In this document: positions 51,495 to 60,365 of the stretch, one piece after another
How the letters are laid out: each line of letters opens with the position of its first letter
Numbering within the stretch: position 1 is the stretch's first letter
Source of the DNA: Salinispira pacifica
GTDB lineage: Bacteria; Spirochaetota; Spirochaetia; DSM-27196; Salinispiraceae
Direction of reading: 5' to 3'
Assembly (NCBI RefSeq): GCF_000507245.1
Contig: NC_023035.1
Location: 757,001 to 821,000 of the forward strand
DNA: 64,000 nt
The notes under the pieces: model-generated
The model's database searches: none
What the model was told of the DNA's origin: nothing
The model's input: only the letters and a program-made list of their open reading frames with translations
Program-made: the position numbers and the translations under genes

Positions 51495-52384
51495 ATGGCA
51501 ATAGCAGGAATGAAAAAACGAAAATTCGACCTATTCAATATAGTCAATATCAGTATCATGCTGATTATCTGCGGCGTAACCATTTATCCCATCTGGTATA
51601 CCGTGGTGCTTTCTTTCAATGACGGAAGCGATGCTCTTCTGGGGGCATCTACTGGTGGCCCAGGGAGTTCAGTCTGGAGAGCTATCAGGCGGTATTCCAG
51701 TCTCCGGATATTATATGGGCCTTCGTGATTTCTGTTCTCCGGACAGTGATCGGGACGGTTACCCATGTGTTTTTCACCGGAATGACGGCGTACGCCTTTT
51801 CCAAGAAACATCTGCCGTTCCGGGGATTTTTTCTGGCCGTGGGAACCTTCACCATGTTTTTCAACGGGGGGCTTATCCCCACCTTCCTGTTGTTTAAGGA
51901 GCTTCATCTTCTGGATAATTTCCTGGTCTACATTCTTCCGACCATGTTTAATTTTTTCCATCTGATCATTTTTATGTCGTTTTTCCGGGAACTGCCCGAA
52001 AGCATCGAAGAGTCGGCTCTTATGGACGGTGCAAATGAATTCATGATTTTCGTCAGAATTATTTTGCCCCTTTCAACTGCGGTAATCGCAACCATTGCTC
52101 TGTTTCACGGGGTCTGGCACTGGAATGATTATTTTTTCGGAGTGATTTTCATTAACAGCGAATCTCTTCAGCCCATTTCCTCCTACCTCTATCGGGTAAT
52201 TGCTGAAACCAGCTCCAATCAGATGCTGGCGAATATGCCCGAGGGCATGCGTTCCCAGTCGGTGACATCACAATCAATCAAACTGGCCACCATGATCGTG
52301 GCCACACTGCCAATTGTCGTTACATATCCGTTCCTGCAGAAATACTTTGTAAAAGGTCTGCTGATCGGATCAGTAAAAGGTTAA
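51495..52384 (+). pseudogene. LplC-type oligosaccharide ABC permease, frameshifted at 51641-51645
   Basis: The first frame (ATG 51495) encodes the N-terminal helix and loop to NDGSDALLG and then leaves frame, ending at 51728. The sequence in the next frame continues the protein as IYWWPREFSLESYQAVFQSP and then AFVISVLRTVIGTV, ending at 52384. One more G in the GGGGG at 51641-51645 joins them into about 296 residues. The second part has the EAA loop ESALMDGANEFMIFVRIILPL and ends LIGSVKG, normal for the family. The gene starts 10 bases after the first permease. Loss of this subunit would inactivate the importer unless the shift is a sequence error. Confidence 0.88.
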
Positions 52385-56680: not shown

Positions 56681-56764
56681 GCTGGGAAGTCAGTGAGCTG
56701 GGAAGTCAGTGAGCTGAAATTCAGTCAGCCGGTGAGGCAGTCAGCCGGTGAGGCAGTCAGCCGG
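56681..56764. repeat. Two families of 16-bp tandem repeats after the GH30 gene
   Basis: GCTGGGAAGTCAGTGA occurs at 56681-56696 and 56697-56712. TCAGCCGGTGAGGCAG occurs at 56725-56740 and 56741-56756, with a half copy after it. The two units share a GTCAG core, so one may have drifted from the other. There are no spacers of unique sequence, so this is not a CRISPR array. Confidence 0.85.
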
Positions 56765-56772
56765 CGGGGAAA

Positions 56773-56821: not shown

Positions 56822-58183
56822 TTACACCCGCTCCAGCACGGCCCCTGCGTAGGTGAACCCGCCTCCGAAGGCGGTGAGCCCCAGGGTGCCGGGCAGGCTG
56901 CCGCTGCTTCCTGCAGCTGTGCCGGTTTGGCCCAGTTCATCCGCATTGCTGAGAATTTGCTCAATACAGAGGGGAATGGTTGATGAAGAGGTATTGCCCC
57001 AGTCCCTGATCATGGAAAATACCCGTGAACTGTCCAGTTTCATCCGCTGGCGCACAGCGTTGATAATCCGCTGGTTCGCCTGGTGGGGTACGATCAGCTC
57101 CAGCGCCTTGGCGTTGAATCCCGAAGCCTTGGCTGCCGAGTCCAGGGATGAGATCATGGCCCGCACCGCTTTCTGATAAATTACCGGTCCTTCCATGCTG
57201 ATATACTCATTTTCGGCGTTTCCGCCCCCCTGCTCATGAAGAGGTACGGTGAGTGCCTGTTCAGTATCGGGGCTTGCGTACAATGACGGGCGGTGAATCC
57301 GGTAGAGGGGTTTCAGCCCCTTTTCCCCTGCGGGTCCGCCGTCTGCCGTTGCGCAGATCAGCGTAGCGGTTGCCGCATCCCCGAAGATGGGGGCGGTTGA
57401 GGGATCGCTGCTGTCCAGGCGCCTGGAGAGCAGTTCCGTGGTAATCAGCAGAATGGGTTTCCCGCCTCCGGTACTGAGCAGGGCATCATGGGCCAGCTGG
57501 AGACCGTAGATGTATCCCGAGCAGGCTGCGGAAAAGTCCATGGCGGGAATTTCCGTACTGCCGTCGCTTCCCGGCAGCCTGTCCAGAACACGGCATGCCA
57601 GGGAGGGAGTAATATTGTCAGGTGTTCCGGTTGATAGGTATATGCCCCCCAGATCTCCTGCTTTGAGATTAAATTGGGTCATCAGCCCGGATGCGGCTTC
57701 CACCGCCATACCCACGGCGCTTTGATCATCCGACGCCCAGCGTCGCCGCTGAATTCCTGTTCGCTTTACAATATCTTCGGGACTCCAGCTGGGACAGAGC
57801 TGTGAAATTTCTTCGTTTTCCAGTACCCGCGAACCGGCGGAGTGGGCGACTCCGGCAATCCCCACAATAATCCCGGAAGAAGTTCCGGATTTTTCGTGCT
57901 GTGTTCCGCCCTTTTTTTCCCCCTGTGTTCCTGTTGGGGCCGGCGTCCGGCTGTCCCGGAACTGAAGGGGTTCCAGCCTGATCACCGGGGTTCCCGGTTC
58001 TTCCCGGGTGGGAGGTTTGGGTACCGCCGCATCCTCGGTGAGCAGCCGGATCAGCGGGGTCCCCACTGCAACCTCATCTCCGATTTCCACCAGCAGGTCC
58101 CGCACCGTGCCGGAAATGGGGGCGGCAATCTCTGTGACCGCCTTGTCCGCTTCCACACTGGCGATCAGATCCCCTTCTTTCAC
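56822..58183 (-). CDS. Lipoyl domain (3' part) fused to beta-ketoacyl-ACP synthase III
   Basis: Residues 1-48 are the rest of a lipoyl/biotinyl domain, with the modified lysine K14 in VEADKAV and the usual PISGTV and GTPLIRL strands. The first strands are encoded just upstream in another frame. A Pro/Gly-rich linker (50-103) follows. Residues 104-453 are a KAS III (FabH-like) domain with the Cys-His-Asn triad intact: C221 in DFSAACSGYIYG, H367 in VPHQANQR and N397 in DWGNTSSSTIPL. KAS III condenses a short acyl group with malonyl-ACP to start fatty acids. The lipoyl arm beside it implies an acyl group arriving from the E1 part upstream. One base missing in the GGG (58189-58191, minus strand) separates this frame from the E1 frame. 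The first in-frame codon is therefore probably not a real start. Confidence 0.85.
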   Translation of the reverse strand: MKEGDLIASVEADKAVTEIAAPISGTVRDLLVEIGDEVAVGTPLIRLLTEDAAVPKPPTREEPGTPVIRLEPLQFRDSRTPAPTGTQGEKKGGTQHEKSGTSSGIIVGIAGVAHSAGSRVLENEEISQLCPSWSPEDIVKRTGIQRRRWASDDQSAVGMAVEAASGLMTQFNLKAGDLGGIYLSTGTPDNITPSLACRVLDRLPGSDGSTEIPAMDFSAACSGYIYGLQLAHDALLSTGGGKPILLITTELLSRRLDSSDPSTAPIFGDAATATLICATADGGPAGEKGLKPLYRIHRPSLYASPDTEQALTVPLHEQGGGNAENEYISMEGPVIYQKAVRAMISSLDSAAKASGFNAKALELIVPHQANQRIINAVRQRMKLDSSRVFSMIRDWGNTSSSTIPLCIEQILSNADELGQTGTAAGSSGSLPGTLGLTAFGGGFTYAGAVLERV

Positions 58184-59703
58184 CTCTTCCCTGCCTTCAC
58201 CAGGTATTCGATGACGGTCACCATTTCATCCGAGGGGCTGGAACCGATGGCTTCAACCAGGAATTCACCCTCTCCGGCGCTTACCGGTTTATCCCAGTCC
58301 ATATCACCCTGAAGCATTTCAACCGCCGCTTCAAGAATTTCCCGGTAGGATGGAAGTACCTCCAGCTGATTGCCGAAGTTGCAGGGAACATAGGTGTCTT
58401 CCCGAACCACCCGCCGTGAGCTGAAACCTCCGGATAATTCCTCACTGAGATACGCCAGGATTTCCGCCCCGAAGCCTGACGACCGGTTATCCTCATGGGC
58501 GATGATCACCCGGCGGCTTGCGGCCACAGATTCCCGTACCATATCCTTGTCCCAGGGGGAAAGGGATCTCAGATCGATCAGGTCCACCTCAACTCCCTTC
58601 TCTTCCAGAGCTGCCGCGGTCTTGGCCATGAGAGGGATGGTGTTCCCCCAGCCGATGAGACTGATGTCCGAGCCGGAACGGATGCGCCGGGCCTTGCCCA
58701 CCGGGACAAAATGCTTGGCGATATCCGGGCTGGTTGCCCTGTTTCGGTCGTTCAGACAGTTTTTCGGATAGAAAAAGAGGGTGGGGCGTCCCGACTCGTA
58801 GGCCGCATTCAGCAGGCCGGCGGCGTCTCCGGCGGACGAGGGCATGACCACATCCACTCCGGGGGTGTGAACCGCAAGGGCTTCCAGGCTGGACGCATGA
58901 AAGGGGCCCAGCCCGGGCTTGTAGCCTCCGGAGGTGATCATGAGAATTGCCGGGGCCTCCCAGCCGCCGTCGGTTCTCCAGTACATGCTGCCCATTTCGG
59001 AGAAAATCTGGTTGTAGGCCAGGGGGAGAAAGTCTGCGAACTGAATGAATCCCACCGGCCTGCCTCCCGCAAGGGCCCGGCCGACGCTTACCCCCGCAAT
59101 GGTGGATTCACTCAACGGACTGTTCAGAACCCGCCCGGGGTTGGCTGTGCTCAGCCCCTTGGTAATGCCGAACACATCGCCCTTGGGATCCTCAATATCC
59201 TCCCCGAACAGGCTCAGCCGCCGGTCCTTTTCCAGGCGCAGCCGGAAACTCTCCCTGATGGCTTCGATCATGGTCAGGCTCGGCTGTTCACCCTCCGGCG
59301 CAGGACCTTCATGGCTGCCCCGGTATTCTTCGGTTTTCAGGTAGGCGGGGGCAAGGGGGCGTTTTGCATCGAACACCGAATCGGGCTCCGGTGAGCGGCG
59401 GCTGCGGTCGGCGGCCTGATGTACTTCCTCCCGCACCTCCTCTTCAAGAGAGGTGATTTCATCCTCGCTCATTCCCGATTCCAGAAGAAGGTTCCGGCAA
59501 TGAACCAGGGGGTCCCTGGTGGAGGCCGAGCGGCCGATATCCTCGGCGCTGCGGTATACGCTCTGGTCGTCTGCATTGGTATGATTGGAAATCCGGTCAA
59601 CCTGGAAAATGACGATTGCCGGCTTCCGGGTTTCCCGCATTTCGTTAACCACCCGGGAAAGCCCGGCATGGGACTCGGTTATATTGCAGCCGTCAATCCT
59701 CAC
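58180..59703 (-). CDS. E1-alpha C-terminus, complete E1-beta and start of lipoyl domain
   Basis: This open frame continues the E1-alpha of the next entry from VRIDGCNITESHAGLSRVV through the usual C-terminal helices. A linker (about residues 100-135) follows. A complete transketolase-like E1-beta domain comes next (MIEAIRESFRLRLEKDRRL, LFGEDIEDPKG, RVLNSPLSESTIAGVSVG, ending CNFGNQLEVLPSYREILEA). At its end FLVEAIGSSPSDEMVTVIEYLVKAG is the first part of a lipoyl domain that continues in the KAS III frame. The order alpha-beta in one chain is known in some 2-oxoacid dehydrogenases, but the lipoyl-KAS III continuation is unusual. The apparent ATG at 59703 arises only because of a lost base upstream and is not a credible start. 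Confidence 0.85.
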   Translation of the reverse strand: MRIDGCNITESHAGLSRVVNEMRETRKPAIVIFQVDRISNHTNADDQSVYRSAEDIGRSASTRDPLVHCRNLLLESGMSEDEITSLEEEVREEVHQAADRSRRSPEPDSVFDAKRPLAPAYLKTEEYRGSHEGPAPEGEQPSLTMIEAIRESFRLRLEKDRRLSLFGEDIEDPKGDVFGITKGLSTANPGRVLNSPLSESTIAGVSVGRALAGGRPVGFIQFADFLPLAYNQIFSEMGSMYWRTDGGWEAPAILMITSGGYKPGLGPFHASSLEALAVHTPGVDVVMPSSAGDAAGLLNAAYESGRPTLFFYPKNCLNDRNRATSPDIAKHFVPVGKARRIRSGSDISLIGWGNTIPLMAKTAAALEEKGVEVDLIDLRSLSPWDKDMVRESVAASRRVIIAHEDNRSSGFGAEILAYLSEELSGGFSSRRVVREDTYVPCNFGNQLEVLPSYREILEAAVEMLQGDMDWDKPVSAGEGEFLVEAIGSSPSDEMVTVIEYLVKAGKR

Positions 59704-60314
59704 AATGGGGATGCCGTAAAAGCTTTCAGCTTCGCCGTCGGGGTAGAGAAAAAGGTTTGCCCCTTGGTCTGGGTGGATATTGCGTACACATTATCCTCAA
59801 TAAAATAGAGGACCGGAAGCCGTTCCCTCACAGAATGAGCAATGGATTCCAGAACCTCACCCTCCTGGGTCATCCCGTCCCCCAGAGCACAGAGAACCAC
59901 CGGGCTGCCCTCCTGATCCTTCACCTCGGCGGCAATACCCGCCGCCGGAAGGGCATTGTTTCCAACCGGACCGGCCAGGCTGAGAACCTTATGCCGGGGA
60001 TCGCTGATGTGAGCGGACATCTGCCTCCCCCGTGAATGGGAGGCATCTTTACAGAAGAGGCTGTGAAAAAACATCTCGCTGCTCACCCCCCGGGCCAGCA
60101 TCAAAGCCTTGTCCCGATAATGGCAATGGAGCCAGTCCTGCTCCCCGAGAATATCTTCCAGTACTACTGAACCTTCGTGTCCGGCTCCGGAAACATGGAA
60201 GAAGGCTTCCCCCCGCTTGGTAAACTGATCCTCCAGGCGGTCCACCTCCCGGGCACTGAGCATATATCGGTAAAATCGGCGCAACTGGTTTTGAGTAAGG
60301 TCTTTTCTCGTCAT
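59700..60314 (-). CDS. 2-oxoacid dehydrogenase E1-alpha, N-terminal two thirds
   Basis: The true start of the fused gene is the ATG at 60314, with AGGAG eight bases upstream. The 204 residues cover the thiamine-diphosphate part of E1-alpha: AGHEGSVVLEDIL, YRDKALMLARG, GRQMSAHISDP, and the ThDP motif GDGMTQEG (from 145) through to N175. The frame leaves the protein at STPTAKLK. The normal continuation DGEAESFYGIPIVRIDG is one base over, so one C is missing from the CCCC encoded at 59740-59743 (GGGG on the plus strand). Joined with the two downstream frames it makes a 1164-residue protein that decarboxylates a 2-oxoacid. The keto acid (pyruvate or branched-chain) cannot be settled from sequence. 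Confidence 0.87.
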   Translation of the reverse strand: MTRKDLTQNQLRRFYRYMLSAREVDRLEDQFTKRGEAFFHVSGAGHEGSVVLEDILGEQDWLHCHYRDKALMLARGVSSEMFFHSLFCKDASHSRGRQMSAHISDPRHKVLSLAGPVGNNALPAAGIAAEVKDQEGSPVVLCALGDGMTQEGEVLESIAHSVRERLPVLYFIEDNVYAISTQTKGQTFFSTPTAKLKAFTASPL

Positions 60315-60365
60315 ACTATCTCCTGCGAGTGTTGGCTGAGGCTAGGATCAGATGGTAGGGTATAA

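Follow-up and report, generated by a model that had tools for sequence, protein, structure and literature searches.

The window analysed here is a 64,000-nucleotide stretch of the Salinispira pacifica genome (contig NC_023035.1, positions 757,001 to 821,000 of the forward strand; single-contig genome of 3,782,798 bases), and our subject is a fusion gene on its minus strand at window positions 56822-60314. Three overlapping minus-strand frames together cover this gene (Table 1), and its 3,493 bases correspond to 1,165 codons once the frame is carried across two one-base slips. The original prediction, which was made from the letters alone, had placed the three frames and counted the codons in the same way, and both its coordinates and its arithmetic were correct. 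Pfam also agreed with the domain order it had given, namely E1-alpha, E1-beta, a lipoyl domain and KAS III, which occurs as a single frame in many genomes. The window gene holds the predicted DKA lysine of the lipoyl domain and the Cys-His-Asn triad of KAS III. In the window protein, Pfam found neither a 2-oxoacid_dh (E2 catalytic) match nor an E3/E1-binding domain.

We then assessed whether the three pieces belong together. GC content by codon position was of the coding type in all of them (0.62/0.42/0.63, 0.63/0.46/0.70 and 0.63/0.51/0.64), and three-frame translation showed that homologous sequence picks up in a different frame after each break. Of the two apparent GTG starts, that at 59703 lacks a ribosome site; the one at 58183 is preceded by a purine run, and the same run encodes a conserved lipoyl turn. 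Three separate genes were ruled out: each break falls within a folded domain, and in spirochaetes the homologues form one uninterrupted frame. Programmed frameshifting was likewise rejected, since the intact homologues do without it at these positions, and a chance arrangement is excluded because 13 single-frame homologues occur in the same phylum.

Table 1. Features of the fusion gene, in window coordinates
Feature	Position	Strand	Evidence or remark
Ribosome-binding site aggaga	60319..60324	-	Upstream of the ATG at 60314; sequence; rated good
Frame 1, N-terminal E1-alpha	59700..60314	-	Pfam E1_dh, profile 1-181 of 300, E 3.9e-22
Thiamine diphosphate (ThDP) motif GDG...N in frame 1	Starts codon 145, about 59,882	-	Motif
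First frame break, within the E1-alpha domain	Between about 59,755 and 59,730	-	Three-frame translation against homologues
Frame 2	58180..59703	-	Pfam E1_dh 206-297 of 300; Transket_pyr E 3e-22; Transketolase_C E 5.9e-25
C-terminal E1-alpha in frame 2	59,655-59,383	-	
E1-beta in frame 2	59,277-58,372	-	
Lipoyl domain, across frames 2 and 3	About 58,311 to about 58,043	-	
Second frame break, within the lipoyl domain	58180..58200, near 58,189	-	Three-frame translation; Biotin_lipoyl match starts at profile position 28
Frame 3, lipoyl remainder, linker and KAS III	56822..58183	-	Pfam Biotin_lipoyl 28-73 of 73, E 1.9e-10; ACP_syn_III E 8.3e-17; ACP_syn_III_C E 4.8e-16
Lipoyl Lys codon (EADKA)	58142..58144	-	Motif; invariant in alignment A1
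KAS III domain	About 57,865-56,831	-	Within frame 3
KAS III nucleophile Cys codon (AACSG)	57521..57523	-	Motif; Cys in 48/48 fusions
KAS III His codon (PHQANQR)	57083..57085	-	Motif; His in 48/48 fusions
KAS III Asn codon (GNTSSS)	56993..56995	-	Motif; Asn in 48/48 fusions

The same four-domain order, which the original prediction had proposed to seek in other spirochaetes and phyla, was found in both. A protein search recovered the fusion as one open frame in 13 of 393 Spirochaetota genomes, with lengths of 1,109-1,209 amino acids plus one frame of 1,067 amino acids (L038) that starts at a contig edge. Among the matches listed from GTDB contigs, other full-length members came from Planctomycetota, Verrucomicrobiota, Sumerlaeota, Rhizobium (including R. 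leucaenae USDA 9039), Devosia, Tabrizicola, Neisseriaceae/Burkholderiales and Methylococcaceae, and a partial member came from a metagenome-assembled genome (MAG) of Armatimonadota. After a strict motif filter, at least 36 intact frames remained among the GTDB-contig loci, some of them sharing genomes with the 13-genome spirochaete set; intact homologues overall were mostly 1,100-1,230 amino acids long. Several records are MAGs, and those of Rhizobium and Tabrizicola have long contigs. Three single-contig genomes are G130, which we take to be S. africana, and G006 and G049, presumably S. thermophila DSM 6192 and DSM 6578. A plasmid search returned KAS III-type matches only, none spanning 80% of the query. 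The catalytic residues were near-invariant in all four domains (alignment A1, 13 sequences; alignment A2, 35 sequences).

Quick maximum-likelihood trees placed the fusion E1s (17 rows) on one side of a branch with a Shimodaira-Hasegawa-like approximate likelihood ratio (SH-aLRT) support of 100, and did the same for the fusion KAS domains (38 rows; SH-aLRT 100). The window copy falls within both groups, a pattern that fits a single old fusion transmitted as a unit. The fusion of the cave MAG L078, whose record is titled Borreliella garinii, groups with that of the Spirochaetia MAG L055, and the name looks wrong. Genes adjoining the fusion vary between lineages. We recognised no E2 or E3 beside it in the flanks, which were read by eye and not profile-scanned, and in the S. 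pacifica genome PF00198 occurs only at 2.33 and 3.09 Mb, so none stands beside the fusion. Homologues always accompanied by an adjoining E2 core, the finding that the original prediction had named as contrary to it, were thus not what we saw at the loci whose neighbours were read. A divergent aconitase-family gene adjoins the fusion in many spirochaetes (L037:2494-5223, the only one assigned by Pfam; L044, L051-L054, L090 and L094), and in Rhizobium a fatty acid hydroxylase-family gene (PF04116; L062:4694-5692) lies upstream, with similar-looking genes in L064, L065 and L089.

We next compared the fusion with its relatives. Sister to the fusion E1s is a clade that includes Photorhabdus BkdA, Verrucomicrobia E1a-E1b-lipoyl-E2 fusions and free-standing E1-alpha/beta proteins, of which some adjoin an E2. 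The Verrucomicrobia proteins (e.g. L100, 1,038 amino acids) have a related E1 and the same first three domains in the same order, but their last domain is an E2 catalytic domain, whereas that of the window family is KAS III. They therefore match the window protein as far as the lipoyl domain, indicating that KAS III takes the position of the acyltransferase. Dehydrogenase complexes for branched-chain 2-oxo acids and pyruvate share the E1 fold, the ThDP motif and the lipoyl lysine with the fusion, which in the Pfam search differed from them in lacking the E2 catalytic and E3-binding domains.

A second arrangement of this kind was found in genome G252, which belongs to the same family as S. pacifica. 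There, a 659-amino-acid E1-alpha/beta gene adjoins a 534-amino-acid lipoyl-PSBD-KAS III gene (L049:5040-8659), so that here too KAS III follows a lipoyl domain and has its E1 alongside. The pair differs from the fusion in being two genes and in keeping the E3/E1-binding domain. In the trees, its E1 clusters with the S. pacifica pyruvate dehydrogenase (PDH) E1, and its KAS falls in with ordinary FabH. Because both lineages differ from those of the fusion, the placing of KAS III after a lipoyl domain beside an E1 arose at least twice. Over the lipoyl part of this protein, a search of the 393 Spirochaetota genomes matched G252 and no other.

A related system is Photorhabdus bkdABC, which leads from a 2-oxo acid through lipoyl to a ketosynthase and is required for branched-chain fatty acids (PMC3838401, PMC8248439). 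In that system, branched-chain fatty acid and stilbene priming is shared by three proteins, whereas the fusion is one polypeptide. BkdA is an E1-alpha/beta protein, and the fusion E1s form a sister clade to its clade rather than lying inside it. BkdB (L095:7918-9438) consists of a lipoyl domain, an E2-like domain and a carrier-type domain, the last two of which have no counterpart in the fusion; BkdC is a ketosynthase of the modular type, in contrast to the KAS III of the fusion. The E2-like region of BkdB reads NHYLLNG where E2 has DHRxxDG, and its C-terminal carrier-type domain carries LGIDSLKA. BkdB may hand acyl groups to its own carrier rather than to coenzyme A (CoA). The claim that the fusion is a new priming module accordingly stands in part: E1-driven priming is partly precedented by bkdABC, while no description of an E1-lipoyl-KAS III fusion was found in the open-access literature (subscription papers not covered). 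Provisionally, the four-part enzyme and the lipoyl-to-KAS hand-over appear to be new, and their parts were already known.

In FabH, the CoA adenine is stacked between Trp32 and Arg151, with Thr28 in contact (PMC4606726). We aligned the fusion KAS III domains with an E. coli FabH reference row, and its catalytic positions aligned as expected. The results showed that T28, W32 and R151 are kept in 16/16 stand-alone FabHs of these spirochaete genomes and in 0/48 fusion sequences, a set in which four genomes are counted twice and the sequences are not independent. Cys112, His244, Asn274 and Arg249 are kept in all 48. The fusion KAS III therefore shares with FabH the thiolase fold, the triad and the carrier-protein-side Arg249, but has lost the CoA clamp, is tethered to a lipoyl domain and scores below the NCBIfam cut-offs (PRK09352, 238 bits against 249; another model, 218 against 292). 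The KAS III of G252 has Tyr for W32 and keeps R151; the fusion has neither W32 nor R151.

In the textbook scheme, FabH draws on acyl-CoA to begin a fatty acid, and E2 is the component through which 2-oxo acid dehydrogenases pass their acyl groups to CoA. For the fusion we propose a shorter cycle. E1-alpha/beta would decarboxylate a 2-oxo acid with ThDP and reductively acylate the tethered lipoyl-lysine. With neither an E2 acyltransferase nor free acyl-CoA in between, the S-acyl-dihydrolipoyl arm would then load the KAS III cysteine with its acyl group, which KAS III would condense with malonyl-acyl carrier protein (ACP) to give 3-oxoacyl-ACP. A separate lipoamide dehydrogenase (E3) would re-oxidise the lipoyl arm. 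We consider direct transfer, which the original prediction had also favoured, to be the best reading because the CoA adenine clamp is lost, the triad is kept and E2 holds the KAS III position in the sister proteins. The hand-over, CoA independence, substrate and product are inferred, whereas the computation shows the domain order, its conservation, the intact triad, the lost clamp, KAS III in the place of E2, and E3 and lipoate ligase encoded in trans. The further suggestion that an alkyl chain might be primed found nothing in its support. We put the probability at roughly 60% that the window gene is a frame-disrupted member of a widespread fusion family priming fatty acids by direct lipoyl-to-KAS III transfer. 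On balance, we also favour the broader view that the family is an old, CoA-free enzyme class, found across several phyla and of at least two origins, whose KAS III stands in for E2 and accepts the acyl group straight from lipoyl-lysine, so that a 2-oxo acid becomes 3-oxoacyl-ACP within one polypeptide.

An AlphaFold2 model of the intact member L050 (35 sequences) had a mean predicted local distance difference test score (pLDDT) of 87.7 and a predicted template-modelling score (pTM) of 0.68. Its best Foldseek matches were FabH and the E1-beta of branched-chain 2-oxo acid dehydrogenase (BCKDH) and PDH, with high target coverage. The weak stretch of the model, residues 780-787, lies in the lipoyl-KAS III linker, and a flexible linker would be compatible with a swinging lipoyl arm. 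The linker after the lipoyl domain also holds a conserved ExPGxP motif (L041; A1 columns E763, P765, G766 and P768).

As to the substrate, branched 2-oxo acids are the likeliest in spirochaetes, probably giving iso- and anteiso-fatty acids. In genome G349, leuA and leuB lie directly upstream of the fusion. S. pacifica is moderately halophilic, aerotolerant and fermentative, with iso-C15:0 (11.7%) among its major fatty acids and anteiso-C15:0 present (PMC4511686). Its genome has 2-oxoglutarate dehydrogenase (OGDH) and PDH and no branched-chain complex; BCKDH was ruled out as the identity of either complex (PDH: PMC4511686). Among these families, G130 holds PDH, one protein of the size of pyruvate:ferredoxin oxidoreductase, the fusion and weak transketolase-like matches only. 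A lack of iso-C15:0 has been presented as a peculiarity of S. asiatica and S. dissipatitropha (PMC4511686), which implies that S. africana has this acid. Within direct transfer, the main substrate could instead be pyruvate or 2-oxobutyrate, so that straight chains would start from acetyl-lipoyl without acetyl-CoA; this question of substrate overlaps our main hypothesis. For the E1 part, the top-ranking NCBIfam models are those of PDH E1, with scores far short of their cut-offs, and the family extends to Rhizobium and Tabrizicola, in which branched fatty acids would not be expected. We nevertheless regard a straight-chain substrate as less likely, given the leuA-leuB neighbours, an acetyl route already covered by PDH and FabH in these genomes, and the role of the sister BkdA in branched-chain fatty acid synthesis (PMC3838401, PMC8248439).

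We also surveyed the fusion genomes for partner enzymes. Lipoamide dehydrogenase and lipoate ligase, both of which the proposed cycle needs, were present in all spirochaete fusion genomes checked. Several other observations weigh against direct transfer from the fusion. At least one true E2 is encoded in trans in every fusion genome checked, so an E2 missing from the genome was ruled out; the predicted absence of E2 holds for the protein and the flanks read, but not for the cell. A stand-alone KAS III likewise occurs in every spirochaete fusion genome checked, which rules out the fusion as sole KAS III. With both enzymes present, the fusion is an extra starter enzyme, not the sole one. The nearest solved KAS III, 3gwa, seems in the alignment to have neither W32 nor R151, and clamp loss may predate the fusion. 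Branched acyl-CoA could come from two shorter POR_N proteins of S. pacifica (631 and 359 amino acids), branched fatty acids do not account for the members in Rhizobium and Tabrizicola, and the window copy itself is interrupted twice.

The E2s in trans bear on a channelled, CoA-dependent route, in which a housekeeping PDH or OGDH E2 would carry the lipoyl-bound acyl group over to CoA, leaving the fused KAS III to use this acyl-CoA as an ordinary FabH does, the fusion only raising local concentration. The KAS III is still FabH-like by its PRK09352 score, which suits this route. We find it rather improbable because the CoA clamp is gone and neither an E2 catalytic nor an E3/E1-binding domain was found in the window protein; the flanks read, with no E2 recognised, and the sister proteins, with E2 where KAS III sits, argue in the same direction.

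Some KAS III-like transferases of polyketide pathways move acyl groups rather than condense them. The KAS III domain might thus be an acyltransferase from lipoyl to ACP or another acceptor and not a condensing enzyme, as its sharing of position with the acyltransferase E2 of the sister proteins and the succession of E2-like and carrier domains in BkdB would allow. The retention of Cys, His and Asn in every fusion sequence speaks against this, and the triad Asn supports decarboxylative condensation with malonyl-ACP, as established for FabH. We therefore judge an acyltransferase more improbable still than the CoA-dependent route, and retain direct transfer followed by condensation.

The state of the gene in S. 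pacifica was considered separately. The window copy is either a pseudogene or carries two sequence errors, and true inactivation and artefact are both possible. The assembly rests on PacBio data at 365x, was checked with Illumina and 454, and has 53 reported pseudogenes (PMC4511686); with this depth and cross-checking, sequence errors are possible but not the default. A second fusion copy in the same genome, at 1,146.7-1,148.9 kb (L046, G000:C1:1146688-1148889), is without E1-alpha and broken in frame at several points, and its KAS end shares 71% identity with the window copy. These observations favour a pseudogene from which no working enzyme is made. However, the 3.5 kb of the window copy contain no further stop, every catalytic residue is kept, both breaks sit at short runs of one nucleotide, where errors are common, and iso- and anteiso-acids are produced although the organism has no branched-chain dehydrogenase. 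We consider a pseudogene and a working gene about evenly balanced, and a pseudogene in S. pacifica would say nothing about the intact members in other genomes. Elsewhere in the window, a sugar-transport ABC permease gene (51,530-52,384) is also frame-broken at about 51,640, showing that the fusion is not the sole broken gene. Short tandem repeats (ctcaccggctgactgc, cagctcactgacttcc) lie at 56,690-56,770, just 3' of the fusion gene.

If true, the lipoyl-to-ketosynthase hand-over would be a new way of starting fatty acids. It could account for the iso-acids of spirochaetes that have no branched-chain dehydrogenase, and the enzyme would serve as a single-polypeptide, CoA-free tool for obtaining branched or unusual fatty acids. 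The idea can be tested directly, since intact homologues exist in a cultured spirochaete and in Rhizobium.

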